A DNA stretch of 25,040 nt from contig WELB01000014.1 of NCBI GenBank assembly GCA_009602725.1, positions 1,282,632-1,307,671 of the forward strand. Direction: 5' to 3'. The stretch is from Spirogloea muscicola (taxonomy: Eukaryota; Streptophyta; Zygnematophyceae; Spirogloeales; Spirogloeaceae). The translations under genes were made by a program, and so were the position numbers. Positions 4,572 to 21,395 of this stretch are shown here, piece after piece (position 1 is the stretch's first letter; each line of letters begins with the position of its first letter). The notes below the pieces were generated by a model. The model did no database searches. It saw only the letters and a list, made by a program, of their open reading frames with translations, and was not told the origin of the DNA.

Positions 4572-5494
4572 AACGCATGGAAGTTGATTGGTGGAGTTGG
4601 ATGATTCTATCTGGCCTTTCCTCACATCAGAAGTGCACAGAAGGCTTCGTGCATCCTGATCTGCATCTAGCAACTTCAGCAATCTCTTGCACAACATAAA
4701 TCTGAGCTTCTCCAGCAGCCGCAGAGCCACTGGCTGCCAAAATGGCTGCCAAAAGCCTCAGGCTGCTCGTCCGCCACTTCTTGGCAGCCACCGTGAAGCG
4801 ACTATGAAGTTCCAAAACTAGCGTTCTTAGCCACATCACCGCACCTCCTTACTCGCTAAGAGTGGTGCACAAAGTCCTCAGCAGTAGGCAAGCAGTTGAA
4901 GGCCGCGCTCCTTTGTTCACTTGCAGGTATTTGAAAGCTCCACAGTGAGGCAAGCAACATGTGGTGCCGCAACCTCTGCTTCCACAAGTCTGGTGCTGCT
5001 GCTATATACTTTGAGGAGGACGCAATGATGGAGTCAACGAACAGGGTCTCTGCCTGGCCAACTCGCTCTCTAGCATCCGCTTCAATGGATGCAAAAGTGA
5101 CCCAAAGCTAGCTCAGCTGTAGGCGATTAGACGAGGTCACGAATGCCAATTGCACTGTAAAGGCCTGCCCGCTCACCATGAAAGCATGAAGTGGTTCACG
5201 AAGAACGTTACCATTCTCATCGCTGCAGACTGAATGCAAGTTGTCAGGCAGGCAGGTTTTGGTCAAGTCTATCTTAGTTATAAGGTAGATATACAATTTC
5301 ACAGCCATCTAGTAACACAGTATATCGCTTCAGTCAAAGCAGAAGCTAGGCCGGCTTCCTAGCTGAAGGCCTTTGAGAGCAGCGGTCAATGGCACGGGCA
5401 TTGCATCTGCGTACCGGTGGCTGCTTTGGCTGCAGCCTCTGGCTATAGACAGGAAGAAAGACAGGGGACACACCACCCTGGGACAAATTTCACT
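4572..5494. other. Intergenic region without recognisable gene
   Basis: AsnRS 3' UTR and intergenic DNA. The open frames here are short and lack domains. The only structure I see is a 12-bp perfect tandem duplication, TGGCTGCCAAAA, at about 4731-4754. No tRNA box A/B pair and no repeat-family copy were noticed. Confidence 0.5.
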
Positions 5495-5728
5495 GACCTG
5501 CGGCTGCTCAACAGGGGTTATTGAGCCGAGCTTTGGCGGCGGCCTCCGGCTTCCGTCAGGGCGACGTCTTTCCACCAGCTAGCTACTCGGATCTGCATCT
5601 CCTGTCTAGAGGTTACTGAGCGTTCCCTGGCTGATGTCTTAGTCCTAGTCGTTCGCACTCAAGCTCCCTCAGACCTTGTCCATTCTTTTGGGCTGGCCTT
5701 TCCCAGCCACCTGTCAATATTGAGCACC
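5495..5728 (+). repeat. Dispersed hairpin-repeat copy abutting the MITE
   Basis: Carries CTGCGGCTGCTCAACAGGGG (about 5500-5519), then a GAGGTTACTGAG variant. It ends with CCTTGTCCATTC, TTTTG and the hairpin GGCTGG-CCTTTC-CCAGCC at 5691-5708, followed by CAATATTGAGCACC (to 5728). The same order of blocks occurs at 14030-14246 and 17215-17495. The 3' edge matches the ...CAATGGGCGAGCAC edge of the other copies, so the MITE at 5731 inserted at or next to the end of this copy. Confidence 0.65.
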
Positions 5729-5730
5729 TA

Positions 5731-6198
5731 CAGTCATACCTTGTTATAGGCACCTCTTGATATAGGCACATTAGGGCAAAACCTCGATAGTGGCACCATT
5801 TTGCGGGAAGCACTTTTTTCCCCAGGCAAATGTGACTCGATATAGGAACGTGCCTGTATGTACAGGCACAGTTTTTCGGGGCAGATTTCCCCACTAGGAA
5901 GTGCCTATAGGAAAACAAATCAACATATCTCTCATATTCTCTACAGGGATTAGGGTTGAGGTTAGGGTTTAGGGTGTGGGGTTTGGGGTTTAGGTCTAGG
6001 GTTAGGGTCTAGGCTTTTTAACCCTAACCCTAACCCTAAATTCAAAAAGCCATTTTTCAATATAATCTGATATTTTGCTGATTGTCACGGTAGAAGCACA
6101 TTTGGGGGCAATAGTGCCTCTACAACGAACAAGCACACCTCGACATGGTCACATATTTTCGCCAATCCGGCGGACTTGCCTATAACAAGGTATGACTG
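5731..6198. mobile_element. pogo/Tigger-like MITE, 468 bp, with TA target-site duplication
   Basis: Perfect 22-bp terminal inverted repeats: the left end begins CAGTCATACCTTGTTATA, and the right end (6177-6198) is its exact reverse complement. It is flanked by TA at 5729-5730 and 6199-6200. TIRs starting CAG, rich in TACCTYGTTATA-like sequence, with a TA duplication fit the pogo/Tigger branch of Tc1/mariner (family knowledge). There is no transposase frame, so it is non-autonomous. Sub-terminal motif TATAGGCAC recurs (5745, 5761; inverted at 5901 and near the right end). A hairpin GTGCCTGTA-TG-TACAGGCAC lies at 5850-5869. The interior holds telomere-like repeats. Confidence 0.9.
5947..6051. 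repeat. Inverted telomere-like repeats inside the MITE
   Basis: A G-rich series of TTAGGG, TTTAGGG and variants (5947-6012) is followed by the complementary strand as three CCCTAA units (6021-6039). The C-rich units sit between an 8-bp inverted pair, GGCTTTTT (6012-6019) and AAAAAGCC (6044-6051). The whole block can fold back on itself. Confidence 0.85.
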
Positions 6199-6224
6199 TA
6201 GTAGCCACTTGAATTGCTGTGTGC

Positions 6225-6420
6225 TCTAGCGCTTTTCTGGCCCCTTCAAAACTCGTTCATCCTCAGGTCTCCGTATTATGTAGCATTGTTTAGTCTGCAC
6301 TCGACTCTGCCTGAACAATGTATTGGCTTGAATTGGCCTCCCTTTCAATTCATGCGCCCCGCGCGCCTTCTCTCTTCATCTGGGCTGGCCGATCACAGCC
6401 ATCGCCCTCTACTGCAAGAC
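6225..6420 (+). repeat. Dispersed hairpin-repeat copy upstream of the O-FucT-like gene
   Basis: Contains TAGCGCTTTTCTGGCCCCTT and then GAATTGGCCTCCCTTTCAAT plus an ATGCGC.CCGCGCGCCTTCTC block (about 6331-6380). This is nearly identical to 12138-12183 and, inverted, to 21012-21062. A hairpin TGGGCTGGCC-GATCA-CAGCC follows at 6381-6400. It lies in the probable promoter region of the gene starting at 6611. Confidence 0.65.
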
Positions 6421-6610
6421 CCTTCACACTTTTGCTGCGGCAAGGCCCGCGCTTGCAGCGCATTGAGGTGGGCTGCCGCCTGCCGAGCACAAGGCCGTCT
6501 ACGTGCGAAGTCGACGGCCTCCAGGGGGACCTGCATTGCCGGCTGCCTTCTTTTCGTCCATGGCTCTGCGGCGGTGATGACAACGTTGAAGGCGTGAGAC
6601 TGCGTCGAGC

Positions 6611-9140
6611 ATGGCGGCAGCGGTCGAGGGGCCCGCCGAGGAGCCTGCGGTGGGACCTGCGCCAACTGGGTCTGCGACGCGGAGCGACTCCTGGCTGCTG
6701 CGCAGCCGCTACGTGATAGTGCCGGCGGGGGCGCTGGCGCTCACGCTGGGCCTGGTCCTGGCGGACCTCCGCCGCCTGGCGGTGCTGAATCCCGGCCGCC
6801 TGCTCGCCTTCGACGGCATGGCCGGCCTCGGCGAGGTGGGCTCACGGCGAAACGTGACGTCTGGACCGAAAGCTGGTCGAGCCTTCTTAGCTGGTGGCAC
6901 ATGGGCTTGTTGAATGCCGTCCATTTTTGGGCATCAGTTAGTGATCTCTATGTGCTGACTCGCGGTTACCGAGCGGGTCAGCTTAGCAGCAGGTGATGTT
7001 CACCTGTTAATGTGCTTGCCTTTGTACTTCAACACTCAGGCCCACCATCACTCAATACACACTTCATTCGGAAAGTTGAGAGCTGGATAACACTTCAGCC
7101 TGACGCTTAGGTGTGCATTCCCACAATGCTTTGGGACTCCATGCTCAACCCCACTGCCGATGCACGCTGTCTACCTTCTGCAAGTAGGCTGGGGAGTTCT
7201 ACGGTGGTGAGAAGTTCCTGGTGTACCAGCGCGCTGACGACTGGTGCAAGGGCATCAAGCACTGGCAGTGGAGCTTCCTGTGCGGCGTCGCTGAGGCTGC
7301 GTATCTGAATCGCACGTGGGTCATGGACTACAGCTTCTGCCTATGGTGGGCCCACAATCCCGGGGCTGGCAGGTGATCGACCAGGACTACACTTCTAAGG
7401 CCAGACACAACCATCTGTACACTGTTCACACTTGCAAGAATTCTCTTTGCAGATATCATTAGGATTTTAGCACGCCATGATGGGCAGCAAGCCTGATGAT
7501 GACAGTCATGTGTGTTCTTGTTTTACAGTGACAATATCATCCTTATGTAACTTGCACAACAGGCCTGACACAGCAATGTCGTCTTTGCCCAATATGCCGG
7601 CCCAGAAACATCGAGAAGGACTTCCGGCTGTACTACAGCTCAGAGCACCTCGCGAAATACGTCAGGCTCGTCGAGTGGCATGCTTTCCACAAGGAGCTCC
7701 AGTCCCGCACCGATGCAGGCAGAGAGGTCACTGTGCTGGATGTTGACGAAAACCATGCTGCCTCAGAGCTCAAGCTGCTCGACGTCCCCATTGTGCGCAG
7801 GACCATAACTGACAAGAGGAACCCCTACTGGTACAGGGTAATTGGCCTTCTGCCATCTGGAGCTTGTCAAATGACAATCGGCCAATGCCATGGCTCATGG
7901 CTGATGCAACCTGCTGTCCACTTGCTTGTGTAATACAAGGGAGCCAAGAGTTGTGTTAAATAGTACGTTTCAAGGGTTGGGCTGTTCGCCGATCAAAGCG
8001 GTAGGCCACGAGAACGAATGTGGAGTAAGGACGTCATTAGACCTCAACTTCGATGTGCACAAAGTCACTGCTCTGACATCCTCAAGTGCTTCCGCATTGC
8101 AGGTCTGTGACAGGCCGATCAACAAGGCAGTGCTCATTCGCAACTTCAACATGTTGTGGCAGCAGCCGCATCTGCATGACATGGCGGAGGCGATTATTAA
8201 GCGGCTGGGGGGCGTTTACGACAGCGTACATATTCGACGTGGTGACAAGGTGTATCAGAAGAACTGGCGGGGCCGATGGCCACACCTGGACCGTGACACA
8301 CGGCCTCCCAAGCTCTACGGTACCTGAGACCACAGTCTTTTGGTAATTCTTTGTTGATGGTAGTCACGATTGTGACACTATGATTGTACGAATGGATATA
8401 AGGATTGTGAGTGAGGGCGTTGAGATAGTAGTTCAGCTTTGAGGTCTGGAGTGGGTGTTCTAGATACGATTCTGCAATAGGTCAGGCTGTATTTGTGTGC
8501 GAGTTCCCTAGCAAAACACGGGTGCAAGTCTAATTAATGGCAATATTGCAGAAACGCTGCTCAAGCTGGTGACTCCTGGGAGGCCGCTGTATGTGGCAAC
8601 AGACGAGACGCCTACATTTTTTGTTGCAATGGACAAGTTGTTCAATGTGTCGTTCCTCAGTTCTTACTCAGACCTTTGGCAGCCAGGCAGCGCCTGGTAC
8701 AAGACTGTGGAGACGATACTTGGTGGGCCAAGACCCGCAGACCTGCAGGCATCTACTGTGGCTTGTTTAGCAATTACAGTCATCATGATTTATACTTGTG
8801 AATTTGTCCAATCTTTTGTTTTTGTTGTGCAACAACACAATGTGTCATTGAACACGTTCGAAGCAACTGGCTCCAGAGGGTAAGATGTGAGTGTGTCGAA
8901 GGAGGCAGTCTTTGCGATTGGCCAGGATTGGCCCCTGCTATTGCCCACCACCTCAATATTCAGTCTGAAAAGTGTTCGCACTGCTCCTTCTTTATTGCAG
9001 GGCAGAGGCAGACTCCTGACTTTGATGGTTATATGAGGACATTGGTGGACTACGATGTGTTTGGCGCCGCCTCAAAGAAAATTGAGACTTTCAACAACTT
9101 GACTGACGACCCTAGGAGTGGCCGCTACCGACGGCGGTGA
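6611..9140 (+). CDS. O-fucosyltransferase-like type II membrane protein
   Basis: Probable Golgi glycosyltransferase of the plant O-fucosyltransferase-like superfamily (GDP-fucose fold); donor and acceptor are not provable from sequence. Six exons: 6611-6835, 7188-7372, 7606-7837, 8103-8319, 8552-8722, 9001-9140. Phases are consistent and give 389 residues. A short cytosolic N-terminus precedes one membrane anchor at about 34-52 (YVIVPAGALALTLGLVLAD). The lumenal part has WSFLCGVAEAAYLNRTWVMD, KDFRLYYSSEHL, then NPYWYR|VCDRP. The superfamily hallmark HIRRGDK is at 257-263, LYVATDE at 299-305, and DFDGYMRTLVDYDVF near the C-terminus. NRT, NVS and NLT sequons fit lumenal exposure. It resembles the plant subgroup once annotated as calcium-ion-binding protein. 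The exon 2 acceptor (7188 rather than 7197) is the least certain junction. Confidence 0.84.
6960..7090 (-). repeat. Dispersed repeat copy in O-FucT-like intron 1
   Basis: The reverse complement contains AGTACAAAGGCAAGCACATT and then CATCACCTGCTGCTAAGCTGACC. It matches 18540-18613 on the + strand (GGCAAGTACATTGACA, CACCTGCTGCTAAGCTGACC), and part of it matches 21340-21390. It is a different family from the GGCTGG hairpin units. Confidence 0.65.
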
Positions 9141-10113
9141 GATTGTATGTGTGGTCCTGAGTGTGCGGATGACAAAGCTGGCATTTATGTCCTGCTGCAC
9201 CAATGACAGACTTTTCATCAAGCCCTCAATTGTTGTGTATACTACAGTAAAGTGTCCCTTCAAGCAAAGCGGTTCGAGTGAACCACATTGATACTCTATG
9301 CTTACATAGAGCATTCGCCAGGCTGTCCTTGGCCTCATTGGAGATTGATTTGTACGGTATACATACATCATGCATCACTGGCAATCAACAATAGCTTCTA
9401 CATTAAACAAAATTACAAAGCAAGTCGTCACGTGCGGCTAGTCTAGACTGATTGATTTGCCATATACGAAAGAGGCATGAGCTTGTCTGATAAATGATTA
9501 CCCGGCAACAAAAGCGTGATCTTGCCCACTTCATGACCACTCTCGTGATATTGAGATCACTTAAGTCACATGCTAGATTCTACTAGTTGTCATGTATGTA
9601 CACCCAGCTTTTCAACGCTAGCATTGGCTCCCACAGACTGGCAGGCATTGTCTTACTGGATTGCCAAGTTACAGACAATCAAAGGTTGCACTGGACAGTG
9701 CCCTATAAGCACAAGTGACTGCAGCCTGCAGTTGAGTAGGAGCAAAGTGATATATCATCCTTGACAGTGTTATTAATGAATGTATGAGTCTACAAAGTAG
9801 CAGCAGTACCTCCTAAGCTCGCAAGTAAGAATCTCGGAACAAACATTGATGAGGCAAGTCCTCTGTACCTCTAACTTCAGCCTTGGTGCGTGGCTTGGTC
9901 ATCAAGATTTGGCAAAGTCAATAGAGGGCGAGCCCGCAGCCGGCTGCAGCATGCAGTCTTTCGGGGCGGGCAAGTGGTGTAGTATGATACTCGGCAGCGG
10001 CGGGCTGCGTCAAGAATCGTGCGAGTGCCAATGGGGCAGCTGCAGGGGGTTGTACAAGGGGAGCCGAGGGCAAAGCAGAGCAAGGTGGCATGGAGACGGC
10101 GCTTGGGCCATCG
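9141..10113. other. Intergenic region between convergent genes
   Basis: Holds the 3' ends of the O-FucT-like gene (+) and the universal stress gene (-). I see no coding sequence and no copy of the local repeat families. Minor palindromes only: GGTTCGAGTGAACC near 9270 and GCAGCCGGCTGC at 9936-9947. No TGTAA signal follows the 9140 stop. Confidence 0.5.
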
Positions 10114-11233
10114 TCAGCAGTGCACACGGATAGACCGGTCCTCGGCAGTGGGGGCGGCAAAGGAGGGCATGCTGAACAGGCACTGGCCCCCTGCCGCCGC
10201 GGGCTTGCTCGGTGCAGCAGTCGCCCCTTTGACGGCCGGTCGCACAACAATCACGGGGCTGGCGCAGTGATGCGCGCAGAAGTTGCTGGTGCTTCCAAAG
10301 GACGGCAACCTGCGATAGCGGAAGGGCTGCTGCCATCAGCTGTGTGATAGCAGCTGGCCCAACAAAACCCATTGCTTGCGACGGTGGTGACAATAAGAGA
10401 CGTGCAAGCCATGGCGAATGCGGACGGAGGAAGACGGGGCTTACAGCTGGGCAGCAGCGTTGAGCCCGCGGCTGCCGAGGATGAGGATGTCGGCGCAGAC
10501 GTGCATCACCTCCCGGCAGATCATGTCGCGCTCCTCGCCCACAACAATGCGGCCCTCGCACTTGATCTGCACCCCCATGTGCCGTCAACTCAGATGGTCG
10601 TCCCAGCTCTGGCCACGACGGCGGCGCCGGCAGCAGAGGCTTCCTAGAGGGAGCGGGCAAGCGGGCAGGGCCGCACCTTGGCCTGCCGCACGACGTTGCA
10701 GTACTTGTCGATGAGGTCGCCGGCCGCGACCACCACCTGGGCCTCCATCTCCACCACGCTGCCAGCCGCCGGCGGCGGCCGCGACGGCCGCTGGCACGCC
10801 GAGTCGGCGACTGCAGCGCATGGACAAGGCGCGTCATGGACAAGGCCCTTGCAGACGGCCACCGCCAGGCGGCAATGGGTTGCCGGAAGCATCGCAAGAA
10901 GGCTTGAGTCCTTGACGGAGTGCCGGAGCCAGGCGCTCACCTCCGAGGCTGCGACGGACGTGGACGAGGTGGACGTGGTCGTGGGCGCGGCAGTAGTTCC
11001 GGAGCGCCCAGTCGAACGCCAGCGCGGCGCCTGCAAGCGACGGCGGCGGCGGCGACGCCCGAGACGTCAGTCTAAATGTACGAACGTGACGGCCGGAGCG
11101 GCGTCCCGACGACGGGCCGTCGAGCCGCGTGAGCCGAGCAGGCGCGAGAGCCGAGTGGCGCCGCACCGTCGCTGCCGTCGATGGCGATGAGCACGCGCCG
11201 CGGCTCCGCGGCCAGCAGCGGTTCCATGGCCAT
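10114..11233 (-). CDS. Universal stress protein (UspA family)
   Basis: Small cytosolic alpha/beta nucleotide-binding protein of the UspA family, linked to stress responses. Five exons on the minus strand: 11233-11167, 11030-10941, 10810-10677, 10566-10445, 10309-10114. All junctions are phase-consistent and give 202 residues. Seen: beta-1 VLIAIDGSDGA (acidic residue of the nucleotide pocket), AFDWALRNYCRAHDHVHLVHV, an acidic/Gln helix VVEMEAQVVVAAGDLIDKY, GRIVVGEERDMICREV, ADILILGSRGL, and SNFCAHHCASPVIVV at the C-terminal strand. The glycine signature is G128-x2-G131-x11-G143-S; the usual spacing is x9. After VIVV comes a low-complexity tail of about 40 residues with no family counterpart. 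ATG at 11233 is chosen because it directly precedes the beta-1 strand; a second ATG is two codons later. Exon 4 lacks an ATG start of its own and is recognised only by frame and homology. Confidence 0.88.
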
Positions 11234-11911
11234 GGCGGNCCAGGCCCGAGCGGATAGGGCCCCCACCCCGGCCGGCCGGCCCCTCGGGGGCGCGGCGCCG
11301 CAGGGCCGCCCTCCCTCCTCCACCCCCCTCCCCGCCGGCCCCTCTTTCACCGGCGCCGCCCCTCGCTTTTGCCTCCCCCACCACGTGGCGGCTTTGCGGG
11401 GCCCGCTCCTGCCCCCCAGAAGCGCGAAACGCGTGGCAGCTCGATCGGGCCTCGCTGCCTGGGCGTCACGGACCGTCAGATTTTTTCAATCGTACTGCTG
11501 CAGGCAGGCCGCGTGGGCACCCTTCGAATGCGAGGCACGTGGCAAAGGCGGGCTGCGAAGCTGGCCGCCAGATGGCCCCATCGGACGGTGCTTGGGTGCT
11601 GCCTGGCTGGCCCCCCTGAACACGTGCGGCCGCCCTTTTTATCCACTGCGGATAGCGCCCTCGCCACACGTGACACGGCGGCTGACGCCCCTCCCACGCA
11701 GTGTACTCGCGGCCAGGCCGCGCTATGGCTGCTGCTTCTCGGTCTCGTCGGGGTGCCTTCTTTTCCTTCTTTGCCTTCTCACGGCTACCGCTGTAAATCT
11801 GGAAGCGCTGTTACCTTTTCCAGCGTACGAAGTGGTCTTCCCACCTCCATCGCCTGGCACTGCATGTCGATGCCCGCTGACGTAGTCGGGCAGGTAGCTT
11901 AGGGCACTCTA
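11234..11911 (-). promoter_or_regulatory. GC-rich upstream region of the universal stress gene
   Basis: Very GC-rich, C-tract-laden DNA with one undetermined base at 11239, six bases upstream of the start codon. Likely 5' UTR and promoter of the minus-strand gene. Plus-strand frames crossing it are Pro/Arg/Ala-rich shadows without a domain. Several CACGTG/CACGTGG-type cores (near 11380, 11620, 11665) are candidate bZIP/bHLH sites; this is inference. Confidence 0.35.
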
Positions 11912-12330
11912 GCGTCCCACAAGCCATCTTTGCATGCTATAGAATGCGGCTATCATTGAGTCTACAGCGCTCCCAGGCACCAGCGTGCTGGGCGTGCATT
12001 AGCCCAGGCTGATGGCTCCCATGGTGGTGTGGTGGCTCCTCAGCTTGGCTTGTCAGATACGGATGTGCTCACTCGGGGATATTTAGTGTCCCCCTTAGCC
12101 AGCTCATAACCCCGGTAACAGGACATTTGTAAGGCTAGAATTGGCCTCCCTTTCATTTTCATGCGCACCGCGCGCCTTCTCCAGCTGCATGTTACTCCGA
12201 TTTGCGGCTGCTGGCTTGGGTTACTGCGCTCCCACTCGCTGTAGTCTCTTACCTAGCCGTGATCTTGGCGCCTTTCGACCCTTTTCCTGGGCTGGCCATT
12301 CACAGCTCCCGTCCCCCTTGAAAGAGCTCA
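11912..12330 (+). repeat. Dispersed repeat copy, inverted partner of 21007-21300
   Basis: Starts near GCATGCTATAGAATGCGGCT. It continues through CCAGCGTGCTGG and TGCATTAGCCCAGGCT, TTGTCAGATACGGATGTGCT, GGACATTTGTAAGGCTAGAA and the TTGGCCTCCCTTTCA block. Every block has its reverse complement in the same order at 21007-21300. A further GATTTGCGGCTGCTGGCTTG / GGGTTACT block and the hairpin GGGCTGGCCATTCACAGC (12289-12306) follow. One frame reads HQRAGRALAQADG and LSDTDVLTRGY. Confidence 0.8.
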
Positions 12331-12599
12331 CTTCTTCCCAGAACAGAGTGATGAAAGAAAGTGGCTCTACTCAAATAACAGCTCTTCCAGTAGAAGGCAG
12401 GGGCTGCAAAAGCCTGCCCAAATAGAATATACAAGGGTCCAAAGTGCGTAAAGACGCCTACGCACACAGCAATGCAAGAGACTACAGCTGATGGCAGCCC
12501 CGACTAAGCAGCAGCAAGTCAGAGAAATTTGCAGCTGGTAAAGACGCACCCCGACGAGACCCAGAATCAGCAGCCAAGGCGCAGCCTGCCCGCTATGGC

Positions 12600-12860
12600 T
12601 GCCTCAGAGGTGGCGAAGGGTCGTGAACAGGCAGCCCCGAATGAGTTGACAAGGTCCGAAGGGGCCGAAATGTGCTGAAAGACATACACAAGCACCGACC
12701 ATGTAGGATGTTTGTGTTGTGGCTTGAACTGGCCATCCTTTCATGTCATAGCCTTCTCTCCTGTGTGCCTTCTCTCCCATTGTTCCTGGTCTTGCTTGCA
12801 CGGTCTCTTCCTCCCCACAGAGGCAGTAGTCCTCCAAAAAGACGAAGCAGCTCATTGGCT
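12600..12860. repeat. Degraded dispersed repeat segments
   Basis: The block AAGGTCCGAAGGGGCCGA, then GAAAGACAT, then GACCATGTAGGATG (12649-12712) recurs at 17063-17135. It contains the complement of the CCTTTNGGACCTT-GTC lead-in to the hairpin. The sequence after 12715 (TTGAACTGGCCATCCTTTCA) is a diverged copy of the 6331 block. No coding sequence is evident. Confidence 0.6.
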
Positions 12861-13330
12861 GGCTATGAATAGCGATCGGATGGATGGATGATGTCCTTCA
12901 TGACTGGCAGCTCTTGCCCGCACTTGGCAGCTGCCACAGCTGCCCTTCAATAGAGCTCACTTCTTTCGCCTTGGTGGGGCTCCCCCTTTCAGTTGGGGTC
13001 AAGTCTCTTGCCTGTTCAGAGCGAGTAAGCCGCTGCACCCTGTCGTGCTAAATCCCGTCGACTACTTATTTGTGTCGATCTGACTAGGACAGCTGACTTG
13101 GCTTGACACGTGGCCTCCTAGGCTGACTCATTCACTTATGTGTGTGATTCACGCTAAGGATGGAGGACCACTTCTCTCCCTTTCTCTCTTCCTTCCTCTC
13201 TCTCTCTGGCTTCCTAGGCTGGGTCATACATCTTTGGGTGTGATCAAGCTAACGATTCAAATCTTCAAGCTAAACATAAAGGAGAACCAAATCTTTCTCT
13301 CTCTCGGTAACCGCTCATCAAATGCGTATG
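12861..13330. other. Repeat-flanking sequence without recognisable gene
   Basis: No gene seen. It holds a short C/T-rich tract (about 13160-13210, CTCTCTCCCTTTCTCTCTTC-like) and AGAGCTCACTTCTTTC at about 12953, which echoes 12321-12336. A long frame that starts here and runs into the microsatellite is driven by low complexity. Confidence 0.4.
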
Positions 13331-13470
13331 TCGACAACGACGACAACGACGACAACAACGACGATGACGAGGACAACAACAACAACGACAACAACGACAA
13401 CAACAACGACGACAACAACAACAACAACAACAAAATGACAACGACGACGACGACGACGACGACAACAACG
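13331..13470. repeat. (AAC/GAC)n compound trinucleotide microsatellite
   Basis: About 140 bp of ACA/AAC and GAC/ACG triplets ending in a (GAC)n run. Long frames across it (Asn/Asp on plus, Ser/Leu/Cys on minus) come from the repeat and are not evidence of a protein. Confidence 0.95.
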
Positions 13471-13583
13471 GCGGAGCAACTACAAGGGCCAATACCAACG
13501 CACGACGCCAACCTGCCGAAGACCGTTCAAAGCGCAACGAGGGAAGCCCATCTACAGGTACCTCAACCACCAACAAGACCGTC

Positions 13584-13835
13584 AAGGTGGGCGCTACCGA
13601 AGCGGTGGAAAGGCGATCGTGGAACGGACGGCCGAAGACCACCAATTCGAGGTCAGGTTCGACCTCTGGGTCGGATGACCTTGTCCACTCCTTTGGGCTG
13701 GCCTTTTCCAGCCACCAGTCAATCTGGCCGCGCTTTCTTTCTTGTCGGACGAACGACCCTGATAGACAACCCTTCCGCCTAGCCAACCAGAGTAGCCAAC
13801 GGCGCACCTAGCCAATCAGGTAGTGCTAGGGTTTC
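13584..13835 (+). repeat. Dispersed repeat fragment with hairpin
   Basis: GACCTTGTCCACTCCTTTG leads into the hairpin GGCTGG-CCTTTT-CCAGCC at 13696-13713. A block CCACCAGTCAATCTGGCCGC follows, which reappears inverted and identical at 18355-18380. Downstream, TAGCCAACCAG and TAGCCAATCAGG form a short imperfect tandem (13780-13820). Confidence 0.6.
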
Positions 13836-13943
13836 ACCGTTTTCCGGCCCATGTATTTTTTGGAAATATTATTTCATTATTTTTTTATGTCGGAGCGAGC
13901 TAGCCCTGCCAAGCAGTTCACATGGCAGACCTCACCCTCCTGC

Positions 13944-13999
13944 CGCGCCTGCGCCCACCGCGCCTGCGCCGATCACGCCTGCGTCTATTCGCGCCTGCG
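13944..13999 (+). repeat. CGCGCCTGCG tandem motif, four units
   Basis: CGCGCCTGCG at 13944, 13959 and 13990, and CACGCCTGCG at 13974, with 15-16 bp period. It lies immediately 5' of the repeat copy at 14030-14246. Tandem GC decamers at a short period could be protein-binding sites; no function is shown. Confidence 0.8.
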
Positions 14000-14029
14000 T
14001 CCGCGAGAGCGTAGTAGAGCCCGGCGCTC

Positions 14030-14246
14030 ACGGCGCGCCCTCGCTGCTGCCTCTGGCTCTGGCCAGGGGACCCACTTCCAGGAGCCCAGCATCTCTGATC
14101 TGCGGCTGCTTAGCAGGGGTTACTGAGTGTCTCGTAGCAGCTTTGTTTCTGTTACTTAGCGCTTCCCCTGGCCCCCTTCTCGTACTCTGTTCATTCCTTT
14201 TCGGGCTGGTTGTTCCAGCCCCTATTCTCAATGGGCGAGCACTTTC
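14030..14246 (+). repeat. Best-preserved hairpin-repeat copy (A)
   Basis: From GCCCTCGCTGCTGCCTCTGG through CTGCGGCTGCTTAGCAGGGG and TTACTGAG, then CTTAGCGCTTCCCCTGGCCC. It ends in the hairpin GGCTGG-TTGTT-CCAGCC (14204-14220) and the terminus CTCAATGGGCGAGCACTTTC (14227-14246). It is nearly identical over most of its length to 17288-17490. Its last 33 bases are identical, inverted, to 18741-18773. One frame reads RALAAASGSGQGT, then SISDLRLLSRGY and a stop. Confidence 0.85.
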
Positions 14247-14757
14247 ATTCTTAGTGAGCGTTGCGCGAACCCGCTAGCGACTGCGAGAAGTCGTCCTTTC
14301 TCGTGGTGAGCAGCTGTCCTTTGCAAGTCGTACCTTCGGAGTGTTGTGCTCATTGCTTGAGCGCACGCCTTTGCATCGGTTGCATCGGTGTGCATGTATT
14401 GAAGCCATTGCTTGTTAGATCACGAAGACAGAAAAGGTCCGCCTTCCGGCCTTTTAAGAATTTTGGGGAAACAAGATAGGGCCGATCTTTGGACGGTCTC
14501 ATTACCAATCTAGATAGTACAATCTTCGGACGGTCTCGTGACTTGGATACTGGTGACGGAAACTCAATATACAGTGGCACGTCACATTTTGTTTGTCAAG
14601 CGAACTCTTGAGCTTGAGTTTATTGCATTGGACTGTTAGTACTTGCTTGAACTTTGCTAAAGGCCACAATTGCGACTATCATCTCTGAGTTGCATTGTTG
14701 CCGGTATTATAAATTAGCTGTTGATTGAGTTGTGATCTATTTCTCAGCTACTATTGC
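14247..14757. other. Possible retroelement leader, no gene recognised
   Basis: AT-richer than its surroundings. A near-duplication GATCTTTGGACGGTCTC / AATCTTCGGACGGTCTC lies at about 14483-14540. It precedes a plus-strand frame that looks like a gag N-terminus, so it could be LTR plus leader. I could not find a matching second LTR or a convincing primer-binding site. Confidence 0.3.
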
Positions 14758-14937
14758 ATGAGACTTAGGTCAGGCAGTATCGTCAATCTGGAGCCTGAAG
14801 GTGAAATTGCTTCGACAGACATAGATCTTGCCGCTGAGCCAACTGGTACTGCTGTTGTTGAATCACGTGTGGAATCAGGTAGCTCAAGCGAGATCTCCAC
14901 ATCAACACGCTTCAGAAATTTTTTTAACAAAGTCTAG
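14758..14937 (+). pseudogene. Short frame resembling a retroelement gag N-terminus
   Basis: 59 codons from ATG at 14758 (MRLRSGSIVNLEPEG at the start, then acidic and Ser/Thr-rich, ending at TAG 14937). An N-terminal M-x-RSG followed by an acidic stretch is common in Ty3/gypsy-type gag proteins; that is the only basis for the call. It points toward, and partly overlaps, the oppositely oriented gag remnant. This suggests a rearranged element. Confidence 0.3.
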
Positions 14938-15790
14938 GGCCAAGTCAGCCAGCTGTTGGGTTAACTGTTCAATCTGATTCTGTAACTTCTGCATTTTGTC
15001 GTCCTCAATACGTCCACTGTTTTAGATGAAGACTTCCCCATCTCCAATGCATTCTTATTACGGAATTGCACAGGCAGCTTATCAGGAGATTTTTTCCAAC
15101 ATTGAGATTCTACATGTCCTGTTCTGGCGCAGTGAGCACAAGTGGCTCCAGCAGTCTGATGTCGAGCAGCATAATTTTTGGAAGTACGTCCAACCTTACA
15201 ACAATCATGCCAAGTAACAGCAGGACGAGGTTTGTAGTGGTCCTGTTGAGTACCTCGTACCTGTGGTATGTCAGAAAATGCTACATATGCCTTTGAATTT
15301 CCTGTGAAAGGCTTTGTAACCACAGGAACAACAAACTTCTTATAAGTTCTGGTGAAGGGACCTGAAGCTTCTGGAAAGCGATCATCCAAGCTTCTCAAAG
15401 TAAACTTTGCAACCTCCCTCTCCAACATGACTTGATGAACATCCTGAATGTCGTAGTGCTTCTTATGAAGCTGTTGCCTGCGCACAGTCAATAGATCGAC
15501 TACATGCCACAGAGCTTTACCAGCTACGAAGCGTAAGAACTGTCCCGCTGAATCCTGTGGACTGATAGTAGTGACAATTCTCTATCAGCTGCACACATCG
15601 GAAATAGCAGACTGTTATGTTCTCATTAGGTTCACGCTGGAACCTTAAAGATCTCGTTTGTGTTGCAAGGTGTCTTCCGGGAACTGCTTAGTGAACTGAC
15701 GAAATACGCTCGGCCACAGGATCTATTAGTTGTGGACCTGCCAGCTTTTCGACGTAACTGGCAGACTCAGGAACTGGTTTCCTTATAGAC
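14890..15790 (-). pseudogene. Retrotransposon gag remnant (zinc-knuckle), frameshifted
   Basis: On the minus strand, one frame is open from about 15581 to a stop at 14961. It carries a CX2CX4HX4C zinc knuckle (CAHCARTGHVESQC, about 15125-15085) preceded by a decayed knuckle-like CCKVGRTSKN. Upstream, matching gag pieces lie in other frames with stops between them (QFTKQFPEDT near 15700; RFQREPNENITVCYF near 15640). Downstream, a shifted frame adds a coiled-coil-like MQKLQNQIEQLTQQLADL (15000-14930). There is no protease, reverse transcriptase or integrase. The arrangement suggests a Ty3/gypsy-like gag, but copia is not excluded. It is clearly non-functional as it stands. Confidence 0.8.
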
Positions 15791-16060
15791 AACCTCATCT
15801 TCCATCATCCGTGTATCCGGTGTTGACTGTTCTTGACTTGTCCACGGAGCTGGGATGTCTGGGACTGATAAGGATTGGTACTATTGGCCCCTCATCAGAT
15901 GGCTTTTCATGTCAGCCTGGTCAAAATAGCCAACATCCTTGTTTGTTTTGTGTAAAAGTAGAGTAGCAAGTCAGCATGTTCCTTATTTAAGACCTATCAA
16001 CGCCATCTCGCACAGACGCCCTCTCGCATGACAACCCCCTTGTTTGAGAAACTTCCATCC
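15791..16060. other. Flank of gag remnant, nothing recognised
   Basis: Probably more decayed retroelement sequence on its upstream side. No domain, hairpin repeat or host exon is visible. Confidence 0.35.
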
Positions 16061-16445
16061 CTGGCTCTTCATGGCTTTACAGCCCTTTCGGAGCTTGTTC
16101 ATTCCTCTTGGGCTGGCCTCTCACAGCCATTCCCTTACATGAAAGAGCCACTTTCTTCACATGGGACGCTGTTTCTTTCTACTCGCTCGCTCAGGTGTGC
16201 CGAATACGACCCGCCGCCGCTCCAGCTGTCCCAGGCGTTCGCCATGCATTTGCTGGCAAGCCGCGCCTTGGCTGCCGCCTCTGAATTTGGCGCGGCTGCT
16301 CTTGCTCAGCTTCTAGACACACAAATTTGGGCATAGGGGTTACTCAGTACCCACATCTGAGTAACCATTTGCGCAACTGCTTGTATTATTTAGCCCCTTT
16401 GGACCTTGTCCTCTTCTTTTGGGCTGGCAATTGACAGCCACTCAC
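16061..16445 (+). repeat. Dispersed hairpin-repeat copies, tandem pair
   Basis: Two hairpins: GGCTGG-CCTCTCA-CAGCC (16111-16128) and GGGCTGGCAATTGACAGCC (16421-16439), each preceded by a CTTGTYC-type lead-in. Between them the frame LQLSQAFAMH, SRALAAASEFG, LLDTQIWA is a diverged version of the peptide seen in the 21.1-21.3 kb copy (LQRSQALAIH, GRALAQASGF). AGGGGTTACTCAGTA (16336-16350) matches the post-frame block of other copies. Confidence 0.7.
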
Positions 16446-16570
16446 AGCCTCCTTGGATTGAGCGTCTCTCAATCTGTTTTCCTGGCTAGCACCGCCTTCG
16501 CAAGTGTGTGGTTATCCTTGTCTATTGTTCAGTCAAATCTTATCCTCAGCTCTACTAGCTAGCTTCGCAC

Positions 16571-16608
16571 ATCCACTGCCTTCTATGACGTCATAGAAGG
16601 CAGTGGAT
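16571..16608. repeat. 38-bp perfect palindrome centred on TGACGTCA
   Basis: Left arm ATCCACTGCCTTCTATGAC (16571-16589) is followed without spacer by its exact reverse complement (16590-16608). The centre is TGACGTCA, the palindromic CRE/bZIP core. It could extrude as a cruciform, be a bZIP operator, or be a scar of an inverted duplication. Confidence 0.95.
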
Positions 16609-16669
16609 TCATACTCGACTCCTCATCATAAGATTCATATGGAGAGCATGGAGATTCATACTCGACTCC
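16606..16669 (+). repeat. Direct repeats of GATTCATACTCGACTCCTC
   Basis: The 19-mer occurs at about 16605-16623 and again at 16651-16669. Between them, AAGATTCATATGGA also occurs at 17536. The core GATTCATACTCGACT recurs at about 17557. The repeat begins at the right edge of the 38-bp palindrome. Confidence 0.85.
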
Positions 16670-16672
16670 TCC

Positions 16673-17135
16673 ATGCCTTCGGCTGGCCAACCACAGCCAC
16701 TCGCCCTCTGCTGCAACTGTTCTCCCTCCTTTGGCTGTCAAGGCTCTCGGCTCCCCACCCTCCCATCTAGGCTTCTGCACGACGCGCAGATGTGCTTCCG
16801 GTTGAGATGGGCTTGTCAGCTGCTCATCTGTCATTCTGGTTGCTCCGTGTGTCCGCCTGTTTGCAGCGTGCTCAGGCTCATGCTGCTCGACCTCTAGTTG
16901 GTGGCAGAAGAAAGAAAGGCTTGAGAATCTCCATCCGGCATCCAGGCATCGATCAGCGACCATCTACGTGCCGACCCGTGGTCACTGAGCGGCTCATTTT
17001 GCTGTGGGTAATGGAGGGAAATGGCTCTCTCAAGGGGCGCGAGGGCTGTGAACAGCCAGCCCGGAAAGGTCCGAAGGGGCCGAGAAGCCCCTTGAGAGAC
17101 AGAAAGACATTACTAGGCAAGGACCATGTAGGATG
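16673..17135. repeat. Hairpin-repeat fragments in both orientations
   Basis: Plus-strand hairpin GGCTGGCCAACCACAGCC at 16681-16698. The inverted counterpart GGCTGTGAACAGCCAGCC (17044-17061) is followed by GGTCCGAAGGGGCCGAGAAG (17067-17086), the complement of the usual lead-in. The final GAAAGACATTACTAGGCAAG plus GACCATGTAGGATG matches 12676-12711. Confidence 0.65.
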
Positions 17136-17214
17136 ATCACTTAGAAGCCTCTAGTCAGTAGCCGCAGCCAGAAAGGCTAGCCGCCGGGAAGCAGTCCCCT
17201 TTGTCCCGGGTCAC

Positions 17215-17500
17215 TAGCGCAGGTATACTGCATGCGCTTGGCCGTCTCGCTGCAGAGGTCTATGGCCCGCGCGCTGCACCTGCGTGCTGGCAGAGCCCTC
17301 GCTGCTGCCTCTGGCTCTGGCCAGGGGACCCGCTTCCAGGAGCCTAGCTTCTCTGACCTGAGGCTGCTTAGCAGGGGTTGCTGAGTGCTTCGGAGCTGCT
17401 TGGTTTCTATTTGTGCTTGTTCTCCTTAGTGCTTCCCCTGGCCCCTTCTCGTCCTTTGTTCGTTCTGTTTCGGGCTGGCTTTTCCCAGCCCCTACCGTCA
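17215..17500 (+). repeat. Full-length-looking hairpin-repeat copy (B)
   Basis: Aligned with copy A from GCCCTCGCTGCTGCCTCTGG (17288) onward. It extends further 5' with CGCGCGCTGCACCTGCGTGC, which aligns with the CCAGCGTGCTGG block of 11912-12330. It holds the frame RALAAASGSGQGT, then SFSDLRLLSRG, and the hairpin GGCTGG-CTTTTC-CCAGCC (17473-17490). It differs from A at several third positions and several replacement sites. It ends in the 12-bp tandem that follows rather than in GGGCGAGCAC. Confidence 0.85.
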
Positions 17501-17536
17501 TGGATATGAAGATGGATATGAAGATGGATATGAAGA
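17501..17536 (+). repeat. Three tandem copies of TGGATATGAAGA
   Basis: Exact 12-bp units at 17501, 17513 and 17525, directly after the hairpin of copy B. Short tandem arrays at the 3' end of an element are typical of LINE/SINE tails in many genomes. Whether this is such a tail is inference. Confidence 0.9.
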
Positions 17537-18160
17537 TTCATATGGAATCTCCATAAGATTCATACTCGACTATTCGAGGATTCCTTAAATCCACTTAATT
17601 CTACAATAGCCCAACTATTCTACAAAGTTGCTGAATGGAAGCAAGCAACTCCTTTGCGGCGGCTGCTAGTCCTTGAAGACTGTCCTCCTTGACTGGCAAC
17701 TTTTGGCCGACTGTTATCAAATGCTTTGCGGCTTGATTGTGCGGACACTGACCTCATAGGACCTCAGATACCTCTTGTAAGAAGGCCCCACTTCTTCAGA
17801 GGGCGGACGGCGCCAGGTGCTTATCTGGCACGGCTTGTGTTTATTGTAGCTAAGAACTATGTAGCAGCTTCACGAGAGCCATGCCATAGTGGTCGCTTGT
17901 TGTGCTAGAGACTTACGCTCTCGTGTTGGGCTTCCTTCTACACCTTGTCCACCTTTGGGGCTCGCCATTCACAGAAGATTCTAAAATATGTTCTGCATGT
18001 CCTTGAAGCTGCTGCAATGCGGAGGACGCAGTAAGCTAAGGAGCCTTCTGAGAAGGTGGGTTTGGAAAATGATGAGGGACAAATAGGGGTGTTGGTCAGA
18101 AAAAGCGTCTGAGACTTTTTATCTGGGTGCGCTGGGGTTTCCCTGTGGACCTTGTCCATT
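17537..18160. other. Inter-repeat sequence without gene
   Basis: Contains AAGATTCATATGGA and GATTCATACTCGACT (17536-17572), shared with 16606-16671, and a degenerate hairpin lead-in TTGTCCACCTTTGGGGCT (17945-17962). No coding domain recognised. Confidence 0.4.
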
Positions 18161-18425
18161 CCTCTTTAAGCTGGCTCTCGACAGCCTGAGAGTGCTGGAA
18201 GAGCCATTTCTCTGCTGGCCTCTTACAGCCACCGCCCTCTTCTGGCAGCGTCTTTTCTTCATTTCTCCAACATCCATCGCCTCTTCTGGAGGAGCTTCTT
18301 CTCTCCCCTTTCCTCGAAGTAATCAAAGAAGAAGCAGCTCTTCCAAAGAAGGAAGCGCGGCCAGATTGACTGGTGGCTGGGAACAAAGAAGAAGCAGCTC
18401 TTCCAAAGGGGACGAGGGCGGTGGA
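18160..18425. repeat. Nested hairpin-repeat fragments and direct duplication
   Basis: Plus-oriented pieces: AAGCTGGCTCTCGACAGCC (18168-18186) and CTGGCCTCTTACAGCC. Minus-oriented pieces: GCGCGGCCAGATTGACTGGT, the inverse of 13704-13728. CAAAGAAGAAGCAGCTCTTC is present twice, at about 18327 and 18384, about 57 bp apart. The result looks like repeated insertions and local duplication. Confidence 0.65.
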
Positions 18426-18499
18426 GACTACTTGTTAAAGTGCTTCTGTGAGCTCCAATGAACCCTGAAAACCTTTGCCCGCTTTGTACGAACCGGCCC

Positions 18500-18615
18500 T
18501 TTTCTGTACGCATCAAGAATGCGTGTGTAATAAGATTTGGTAAGGCCATGTGTGGCCAAGTTCAAAGGCAAGTACATTGACAAATGTACGTCACCTGCTG
18601 CTAAGCTGACCATCT
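18500..18615 (+). repeat. Second dispersed repeat family, plus copy
   Basis: AATGCGTGTGTAATAAGATT, GGCCATGTGTGGCCAAGTTC, AAAGGCAAGTACATTGACA and CACCTGCTGCTAAGCTGACC. Homologous to 6960-7090 (inverted) and, for the first half, to 21325-21390 (AATGCGTGTGTATCAAGAGA, GGCCATGAGTGGCCGAGTAC). Confidence 0.7.
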
Positions 18616-18740
18616 GACAGCTGCTCCGGGCTTCGTTTGCGTGACGCCGTACTTCATCTTCGTCAGGTGACGCCTCGACGCCTTCGACGGTGGATGGTAA
18701 ATGGACGGACGATAGCGGCCCCCGGGTCGCGACAAAAGGA

Positions 18741-19117
18741 GAAAGTGCTCGCCCATTGAGAATAGGGGCTGGAAAAGCCAGCCCAGAAGAGAATCAACAA
18801 AGGACGAGAAGGGGGGCCAGGGGAAGCGCTAAGAAAACAAAGCACACAAAGAAACAAAGCAGCTACGGATCACTCAGTAACCCCTGTATGGCTGCTGCTT
18901 CCGGGTCTCGGCAGAGTGCCACTTCTCCTGCTCCGAGTTACTCTGATCTGCTGTTGCTCACATGTGGATACTGAGCAGCCATCTGCATCTCCCTCTGCAC
19001 CGTCTTGCACTTTGTAATGTAGTCCTTTTTCGGCACTTCTTTCTTTGGCTTTGAACATTGTCCATTCATTTTGGGTTGGCTTTGCCAGCCCCTCTTCTCA
19101 ATGGGCGAGCACCTTCT
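18741..19117. mobile_element. Foldback element: two head-to-head repeat copies
   Basis: The ends are inverted repeats of roughly 40 bp with few mismatches: GTGCTCGCCCATTGAGAATA (18746 on) against the reverse complement of the right end GTGCTCGCCCATTGAGAAGA (read from 19112). Hairpins GGCTGG-AAAA-GCCAGCC (left, inverted) and TTGGCTTTGCCAGCC (right) sit just inside. Each arm is a diverged copy of the hairpin-repeat. The left arm on minus has AGGGGTTACTGAG and CTTAGCGCTTCCCCTGGCCC; the right arm on plus has the frame AAASGSRQSATSP, SYSDLLLLTCGY and a stop. No transposase. Confidence 0.8.
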
Positions 19118-19756
19118 TCCTGCTAAGCAGCCTTAGGTCAGAAACGCACAAAAGCCCGCTCGGCTCTGGACCCCGAAACGGCAGGAGCCGCTTGGCCGAC
19201 TGCCGGATCGGCTGCGCATCGGACGGTGTAGAATGACGCGCTTTGTCCACCGTCGCCTGACGAGGGGCTGGAAACTATGCAAAGATTTGGGATTATGCAA
19301 AACCGTTATGTTGAAGGCGTCGACCGGCGAATGCGTTTGTCGACCACTCCACAACTTCATATGGTTGAGGATGACAGCGCTGCAGAAGGAGCTTGTATCT
19401 GTTCCTTCTGATTTGGCCTTTCACAGCCCTCGCCACCTTTGGATGAGCTTACTTCTATCGCAGCCACCGGCTTCCTTCCAGAAAGAGGGATCGCTATTCA
19501 CAGAAAGGGCGCACAGTGCGCTTGCATTGAGTCCGAGGCCAAGCCGAGCGATATCATCGTACAAGCCAAAAGCAATGGTGTTACGAAGAGCAGGACTACA
19601 CAAAACGAAGCCTTGGCTGAAGAAGGGCCGAGGAAGCAGGGCAAGGCTGAAGCGGGCTTCAATTTCCACGACTGAATATATGCAACAGCTGGCTAACTTG
19701 GGAATTTGAAGTACTGCCACTGAAATTGGGTGGCCTGGCGTAGGGCGCCTGAATAC
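19118..19756. other. Inter-repeat sequence; long frame probably not a gene
   Basis: A plus frame of 158 codons (19233-19709) spans a decayed hairpin motif (TTGGCCTTTCACAGCCCTCG, about 19410) and has no domain I recognise. Its codon use and content look like the surrounding repeats. No other feature seen. Confidence 0.4.
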
Positions 19757-21006: not shown

Positions 21007-21300
21007 CCCGAAGAGAGAGAAGGCGCGCGGTACGCATGCCATTGAAAGGGAGGTCAATTCTAGCCTTACAGATGTCCTGTTAACTGGGCAATGAGCTGGC
21101 TAGGGGGGACACTGTTATCCCCAAGTGAGCACATGCATATCTGACAAGCTACTCTGAGGAGCCAAACCACCACCACGGAAGCCACTAGCCTGGGCTAATG
21201 CACGACCAGCACGCTGGTGAATCGCGAGTGCCTGGGAGCGCTGCAAACTCAATGATAGCCGCACTCTATAGCATGCAACAATGGCTTGCGGGACACTAGA
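21007..21300 (-). repeat. Dispersed repeat copy, inverted partner of 11912-12330
   Basis: On the minus strand the order is TGCATGCTATAGAGTGCGGC, CTCCCAGGCACTCG, ACCAGCGTGCTGGTCGTGCA, TTAGCCCAGGCT, CTTGTCAGATATGCATGTGC, AACAGGACATCTGTAAGGCT, then GAATTGACCTCCCTTTCA with CCGCGCGCCTTCTCTCT. The frame LQRSQALAIHQRAGRALAQA, then LSDMHVLTWG, is the longest intact version of the recurrent peptide. Confidence 0.85.
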
Positions 21301-21309
21301 ATGGCCGAA

Positions 21310-21395
21310 AGTACTCTCTTGGGGAAATGCGTGTGTATCAAGAGATGGGGGGGCCATGAGTGGCCGAGTACAAAGGCAAGCACTCTTGAGAGGGT
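21310..21395 (+). repeat. Second dispersed repeat family, partial copy
   Basis: GGGAAATGCGTGTGTATCAA, GGCCATGAGTGGCCGAGTAC and AAAGGCAAGCACTCTTGA align with 18515-18580. It directly adjoins the inverted hairpin-repeat copy. Confidence 0.6.

Follow-up and report, generated by a model that had tools for sequence, protein, structure and literature searches.

What are the repeats that crowd a 25,040-nt stretch of the Spirogloea muscicola genome (contig WELB01000014.1, positions 1,282,632 to 1,307,671; hereafter the window), in which a GGCTGG/CCAGCC hairpin recurs near the 3' end of one short copy after another? We consider it highly probable (about 0.9) that these repeats form the 3' ends of a varied, autonomous group of long interspersed nuclear elements (LINEs) with an R2-type endonuclease, and that the short copies are mostly 5'-truncated LINEs whose tail is probably recognised by the element's own protein. 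We favour truncated LINEs over short interspersed nuclear elements (SINEs) or foldback DNA because the copies share a 3' boundary, tails follow the ends of LINE open reading frames (ORFs), intact LINEs carry the tail, and these encode an R2-like reverse transcriptase (RT) and, according to a structural model, an R2-like endonuclease fold.

All eleven hairpin sites listed for the window in an earlier note (5691, 6383, 12290, 13696, 14204, 16111, 16422, 16681, 17473, 18770 and 19074) carry GGCTGG-loop-CCAGCC or CAGCC, exactly or with one or two of the stem bases changed, and their loops measure 5 or 6 nt; the 5' arm at 19074 reads GGTTGG, and the site at 18770 is an inverted copy. Inspection of the window sites bore out the lead-in, changing loop and constant stem described there. 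The pattern GGCTGGN6CCAGCC with up to three mismatches matched the window 42 times, whereas 100 shuffles gave 21.0 ± 4.5 matches and in no case as many as 42. A profile covering the final ~74 nt, made from 40 genomic copies, detected 18 tails in the 25-kb window at E 0.01 (13 on the + strand and 5 on the − strand), while at the same threshold random DNA, consisting of 20 arbitrarily placed 2.5-kb pieces with 40.0 kb of non-N bases, contained six. Across the genome searched (153 Mb in 471 contigs), a 23-nt motif comprising the lead-in and 5' stem arm had 7,183 matches with up to two mismatches, and its reversed control had none. Scaling from the random pieces gives a rough genome total of ~23,000 tails, a loose figure based on six matches.

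To characterize the copies, we fetched 40 of 100 listed perfect matches, out of the 7,183 in total, with their flanks. These copies have a sharp shared 3' boundary near position 660–668, so that the outcome named in the earlier note as refuting, copies without a common boundary, was not seen; similarity among them stops ~40 nt beyond the hairpin, and its upstream extent is very variable. The 3' end differs by subfamily (CCAGTCAATCTGGCCGCGCTT in A, TATGGGCGAGC in C, CAATGGGCGAGCAC in D and GTGGGCGAGCAATT in E), and beyond each end a pyrimidine run is followed by unrelated DNA. The CAAT...GAGCAC terminus proposed earlier does end some LINE subfamilies (14204 and 19074), but the 5691 copy belongs to another subfamily, of which further fetched copies end in CCAGTCAATCTGGCCGCGCTT. 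A short tandem tail is present as GGATATGAAGAT repeats after 17490, but it was noticed after that copy only, no search having been made elsewhere. In comparison with six reference elements, matches of 26 of the 40 copies begin within the 3' untranslated region (UTR), 11 copies have LINE ORF up to 110 nt upstream, two have a longer DNA match and one (L021) has no match; the ORF beside L034 comes from the LINE in which the L034 tail lies. Families E and G are not represented among the six references, so that some copies extend further than their score indicates; in a few, a nested tail separates the ORF from the hairpin. Eight copies of the 5691 subfamily are near-identical, and the longer ones among them (L045 and L046) extend upstream into an open frame that ends ...RALAAASGFRxGxxFPPASYSxLHLLSRGY*.

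Intact elements carrying the tail were recovered elsewhere in the genome. Three long-frame loci had ORFs of 1,513, 1,498 and 1,195 aa, and an RT search added eight long copies and two shorter ones (L120 and L121), whose frames are broken and whose fetched DNA stops short of their tails. Protein searches scored 150 of 18,924 first-look candidates when the C-terminus of the 5691 subfamily was the query and 150 of 14,595 when the query came from family B, a second LINE family of the window, both candidate counts being unverified. A GGCTGG hairpin lies 3' of the stop codon in L049 and L050 (A), L115 and L116 (C), L113, L114 and L119 (D), and L117 and L118 (H), with protein identities to L049 of 83% for L050, 70% for C, 69% for L114, 66% for L119 and 52% for H. 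Three pairs of near-identical copies have differing flanks and end in this hairpin (L115/L116, 99.93% over 4,307 nt; L117/L118, 99.8% over 4,116 nt; L113/L114, 99.6% over 3,904 nt), and this sequence identity between intact copies suggests recent activity. Given that L115 and L116 start at one base, and L117 and L118 likewise, they look full-length at 4.1–4.3 kb, a judgement made for L115–L118 only, as the 5' ends of other elements were not fixed. L112 combines a D-type LINE ORF with a C-type tail, as though its 3' UTR had received the latter by insertion or exchange.

Among 68 LINE ORF ends in the fetched DNA and the window, 51 are followed by a hairpin tail on the same strand within 300 nt, a count inflated by the many ends that come from tail-chosen loci (L001–L048), and 48 of these 51 within 130 nt; a family-B tail follows 15, either tail 63 and neither tail five. 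The earlier idea of a 3' hairpin recognised by the RT of a partner LINE with the same 3' end was broadly right, intact LINEs ending in the hairpin, but a separate partner is unneeded, as the copies look like 5'-truncated LINE pieces with differing 5' starts. As a route to the LINEs, a genome search with RVT_1 was unsuccessful: 150 of 985 candidates were scored, their match lengths look LTR (long terminal repeat)-like in our reading, and the LINEs were not reached. PF14529 had no matches genome-wide. No ribozyme resembling that of hepatitis delta virus was found at two element 5' ends, where the Rfam matches were chance matches to one palindrome. In L115, positions 6926–7052 hold a palindromic stretch with sub-threshold microRNA matches on both strands.

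Each LINE encodes one protein, in which a Pro-rich N-terminus with Cys/His fingers is followed by an RT, a CxC...HxxxC finger and an R2-type restriction-like endonuclease (RLE). The N-terminal CxxC...HxxxxC fingers were spotted by eye. In a Pfam scan of five near-full-length ORFs, RVT_1 matched each of them and an APE endonuclease none (genome-wide, PF14529 was searched but not PF03372); RVT_1 had no match in a 557-aa partial frame of family B. In a search of PDB with a profile made from nine sequences, the best matches were to R2 (E 4.5e-11, 6e-11 and 1.8e-7), closeness thus being judged among PDB sequences only, followed by weaker matches to a prokaryotic-type RNA-directed DNA polymerase (0.014) and L1 ORF2 (0.016). 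A model of the C-terminal 294 aa, built from 12 sequences including family B, had a pLDDT of 64.8, a pTM of 0.64 and an alpha-beta-beta-beta-alpha-beta core. Seven R2 chains headed its fold comparison (Z 13.1–15.4), the next row being a spliceosome chain at Z 7.9, and Foldseek matched the model to R2 with E values of 1.8e-7 to 2.8e-4. We take this spliceosome chain to be Prp8. Across the 12 sequences, a D-X14-D motif is invariant in the C-terminal domain, where the CxC...HxxxC finger also lies. Searched by sequence against PDB, the endonuclease profile matched nothing up to E 10 apart from a transaminase at E 2. The modelled structure supports an R2-type, PD-(D/E)XK-type endonuclease fold in this domain.

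Our alignment A1 of the tail comprised 37 of 47 ORF-linked tails, nine of which had been pre-picked with a perfect 5' arm (L002, L009, L018, L019:591, L020, L024, L033:591, L035 and L040). The ten dropped were near-duplicates (L043, L044, L046 and L047:774), tails without a 3' arm (L005 and L060) or without a proper hairpin (L049:1937 and L082), one with a long loop (L033:99) and one intact tail (window:5665). In this alignment, the six pairs of the inner stem formed in 99.1% of cells, a value that applies to tails with a recognisable hairpin because of the rows dropped, and changes were one-sided, to G-U. From alignment A2, two of 18 motif-selected rows were left out (L023 and L004:597), and eight G-family rows were shifted by one column. 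Folding of single tails paired the lead-in CTTGTCCAT with a distal ATGGGCGAG, forming an outer stem that closes the inner hairpin, with z values of −3.6 (C), −4.7 (D), −4.0 (L119) and −4.1 (E) in four of nine tails. The arms vary among families, G having CAAT/ATTG where C has CCAT/ATGG, the 16111 tail TTCAT/ATGAA, and H CTGTATG/CATATCAG. Own arms folded more stably than swapped arms, both across nine representatives (−9.2 vs −7.6 kcal/mol, p 0.006) and across 26 partly dependent groups (−9.4 vs −8.3 kcal/mol, p 0.0002), which are not independent given that G-family copies make up several. By column count, 82.3% of outer-stem cells pair, compared to 31–53% for slid partners. An outer stem is likely in families C, D and E. 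A second hairpin past the first (CCAG..CTGG, CCCTAC..GTGGGG) covaried by eye, was absent from the RNAalifold consensus and is not claimed here.

By analogy with R2 and stringent-type LINEs, we propose that the LINE would be transcribed into an RNA ending in a structured tail, consisting in order of the inner GGCTGG hairpin, an outer stem around it in several families, G[CA]GC and a brief stretch of pyrimidines. The LINE's own protein would bind this tail through its RT, the R2-type endonuclease would nick DNA, and cDNA would be primed from the nick at the pyrimidine end (target-primed reverse transcription); frequent early stops of copying would leave short tail-bearing copies.

Besides the inflated count of ORF ends, several results weigh against this account. 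An excess of compensatory stem changes, whose lack the earlier note had named as refuting, was absent from the inner stem, which was never altered on both sides in the 37 tails; given that this stem is conserved and yet has no two-sided change, structure and sequence conservation are inseparable from inner-stem data. The outer stem was not significant in A1, A2, G, H and 16111 (z −1.4 to 0.1; five of nine tails), and its covariation score was reached by 119 of 500 shuffles, with two-sided change in two cells only. Family B belongs to this LINE group yet has a tail of another build, and modelling of all 983 aa gave a poor result (pLDDT 42) that was not usable. Likely target-site duplications, which favour the account where they occur, were seen at only 3 of 48 and 1 of 10 loci, chosen by eye amid other short repeats with no shuffled control; they measure 20 bp in L041 and 8 bp in each of L043, L046 and L113, and those of L041, L043 and L046 lie, by eye, within target tails.

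Tail copies cluster strongly. Another tail lies within 110 bp in 21 of 78 3' flanks (12/38 in the motif-selected sample, 2/8 in the DNA-selected sample, and 2/13 and 5/19 in the protein-selected samples). Tail density is 3.3/kb within 50 bp of the 3' end, 1.3/kb at 150–250 bp and 2.1/kb upstream. Within 16 nt, a tail of the same orientation was re-entered in eight of the 78 flanks, and for five of them the point of entry was the T-run immediately 5' of the hairpin. Another three flanks showed entry into a half tail, a motif that occurs four times on the + strand of the 40 kb of random pieces. Re-entry in the opposite orientation occurred in three flanks (L009, L021 and L076). The family-B profile found no family-B tail in the 78 flanks, though the random pieces hold six of each type. 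These results hint at, but do not prove, a preference of new insertions for the pyrimidine tracts of tails.

Could the short copies be something other than truncated LINEs? A SINE family with its own RNA polymerase III head and a borrowed LINE tail would account for copies being near-identical within one subfamily, and for the 26 of 40 sampled copies that match LINE DNA solely from within the 3' UTR onward. As the source of most short copies, such a family seems improbable to us: the 40 copies have widely different 5' starts, with those of E and G copies underestimated, the longest near-identical 5691-subfamily copies (L045 and L046) extend upstream into the LINE ORF, and the window has neither a tRNA nor an Rfam match, no A/B-box search having been made. 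There is scarcely any chance that the other model of the earlier note, a foldback DNA element or one resembling a miniature inverted-repeat transposable element, applies. Its hairpin would be a terminal inverted repeat on which a transposase acts, in keeping with the hairpin shape and with inverted adjacent copies (e.g., L009), but the hairpin stands at a single end, LINE coding sequence lies upstream, the 5' end is variable so that copies have only the 3' boundary in common, and intact LINEs ending in the hairpin contradict it.

A different question is whether the tail also acts as DNA, forming part of the integration target, so that new copies pick the pyrimidine tracts of existing tails and tails seed further insertions. 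We regard this as possible, though doubtful. Same-orientation re-entries and half-tail entries (8 + 3) outnumber the three opposite ones, the density of 3.3 tails/kb next to the 3' end compares with six tails in 40 kb of random pieces, and the family-B profile had no match in the same flanks. However, the densities at 150–250 bp and upstream imply that general clustering makes up a large share of the excess, the pyrimidines past the tail may be a copy of the element's own, and the orientation bias amounts to 11 vs 3 cases. Still more speculative, and unlikely in our view, is that R2-type LINEs of a green-lineage clade abandoned the targeting of a single site and came to prefer the pyrimidine tracts of their own tails; every insertion would then add fresh targets, the tail serving both as RNA recognition signal and as DNA landing site in a runaway nested growth.

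Read as truncated LINEs with an R2-type endonuclease, the repeats can be placed among known systems. R2, CRE, R4, NeSL, HERO and Utopia likewise encode RT, Cys/His finger and C-terminal RLE in a single ORF, and R2 is the best PDB match of the Spirogloea LINEs by sequence and by fold. In contrast to these elements, the copies here are dispersed and very numerous, and not confined to one ribosomal DNA (rDNA), spliced-leader exon or U2 site. R2-style insertion into 28S rDNA was not encountered, as copies are dispersed with differing 3' flanks and there is no rRNA in the window; neither was Utopia-style insertion into U2 snRNA, given the differing 3' flanks and no U2 match beside L115 or L117 or in the window. 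Most RLE LINEs are bound to one repeated site, HERO being the main exception (PMC4640811), whereas here many families are found genome-wide. According to the same source, HERO also includes non-specific elements, so dispersal alone is not new, and Utopia has the domain order seen here (zinc finger, RT, zinc finger, RLE) and is reported from Amoebozoa, SAR and Opisthokonta, not from the green lineage.

Zepp and ZeppL of green algae resemble our elements in that 5'-truncated LINE copies are heaped into existing copies, but Zepp is an L1-type LINE (PMC8226300), whereas the LINEs here have a predicted R2-type endonuclease fold and no APE by Pfam. The stringent-type ZfL2 has a 3' stem-loop expected to bind the LINE protein and similar to the tail here, where binding would be analogous, but ZfL2 belongs to the L2 clade (PMC4176376). 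Dualen/RandI is an RLE-bearing LINE in Chlamydomonas relatives (PMC8226300, PMC3636483); the latter source gives it an APE endonuclease besides the RLE, in contrast to the five near-full-length ORFs here, in which Pfam found none. A literature search that did not extend to Repbase or to the majority of subscription journals yielded no fitting report of such LINEs from green algae; a paper dealing with oomycetes and plants did not fit. The host genome carries chlorophyll a/b-binding genes, with 68 chlorophyll-binding matches and an LHCII exon for which land-plant chains predominate among the best PDB matches. RLE-type LINEs being already known, this dispersed green-lineage group looks like a new variant. 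Its hairpin tail is kept across LINEs with proteins down to 52% identical, and the group offers a natural series for testing RNA recognition and loss of site specificity. The genome is filled by thousands of mostly shortened copies, often near or inside one another's tails, and the tail can serve as a masking signature for Spirogloea muscicola.

In the window, a LINE C-terminal ORF fragment (5423–5524, +; tblastn 56% to LINE aa 1485–1514) is cut by the next copy, a 5'-truncated LINE of subfamily A1 (5525–5727, +; 93.5% over 31 aa to an intact LINE). This copy has its ORF end at 5527–5619 and inner hairpin at 5691–5708, diverges from its subfamily past 5718 and has at least 40 further genomic copies, 97–99% identical over 119 nt. 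Positions 5728–6201 hold an element of 474 bp that is bounded by perfect terminal inverted repeats of 25 bp (CTACAGTCATACCTTGTTATAGGCA), has TA at either end and contains TTTAGGG-like repeats; presumably it resembles a non-autonomous Tc1/mariner or pogo-type element. A family-B-type 3' UTR and tail (6265–6372, +; GAATTG..CAATTC, ending GCGCGCCTTCTC), found as the same sequence after the LINE ORF end in L048 and L057, has a hairpin tail directly 3' of it (6373–6411, +; hairpin 6383–6400; tail profile 13.6 bits). A 5'-truncated family-B copy (11827–12185, +; ORF 11827–12082 by tblastn, tail to ~12181) has an 85–89% inverted match to a second family-B copy at 21017–21314 (−; tblastn 59% to aa 1457–1512), beyond the range of the earlier note. 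The copy at 11827–12185 is followed by a LINE 3' end with hairpin 12290 (12186–12333, +; tail profile 19.7 bits at 12288–12333), LINE tails at 12378–12440 (−; 19.8 bits) and 12611–12662 (−; 18.3 bits) and, between them, a LINE ORF C-terminal fragment (12497–12592, −; tblastn 59% to aa 1481–1512).

The A-type tail with hairpin 13696 (13675–13739, +; 48.7 bits) has no adjoining LINE ORF match, and upstream of it an AAC/GAC-type triplet run lies within an open frame (13334–13480). A D-family copy (14037–14246, +; ORF end 14126, hairpin 14204–14220, terminus CAATGGGCGAGCAC) was recognised by its ORF stop and tail, the latter shared with the intact D elements L113/L114. Further on are the 16111 tail with the TTCAT/ATGAA outer-stem variant (16087–16153, +; 43.6 bits), a LINE 3' end with hairpin 16422 (16396–16446, +; 22.6 bits), an isolated hairpin (16681–16698, +; pattern with one mismatch) that the tail profile at E 0.01 misses, and a LINE tail on the other strand (17019–17067, −; 16.5 bits). 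A D-type copy (17208–17501, +; tblastn 72%, with stop and 3' UTR) has its ORF up to 17384 and hairpin at 17473–17490. Partial tails occur at 17940–17974 (+; 16.8 bits), 19414–19454 (+; 16.8 bits) and 18344–18383 (−; A-type, 16.0 bits, inverted match to 13705–13744), and two adjoining tails at 18142–18253 (+; 18.8 and 11.2 bits). The inverted D-family 3' end with hairpin 18770 (18741–18886, −; 28.6 bits; inverted matches to 14114–14246 and 17372–17485) is followed by a LINE 3' end with its ORF end at 18974 and hairpin at 19074 (18888–19117, +; 43.5 bits; tblastn).

Other features of the window include a weak O-fucosyltransferase likeness at 7926–8324 (E 0.0044, below cut-off) and, at 14961–15491 (−), an ORF without a Pfam match at E 0.01 that has, by eye, a zinc-knuckle-like CxxCxxxGHxxxxC as in retrotransposon gag. 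A class II tRNA synthetase exon, with a WHEP match slightly below cut-off, lies at 1889–2659, and a perfect, spacer-free palindrome of 38 bp occupies 16571–16608.

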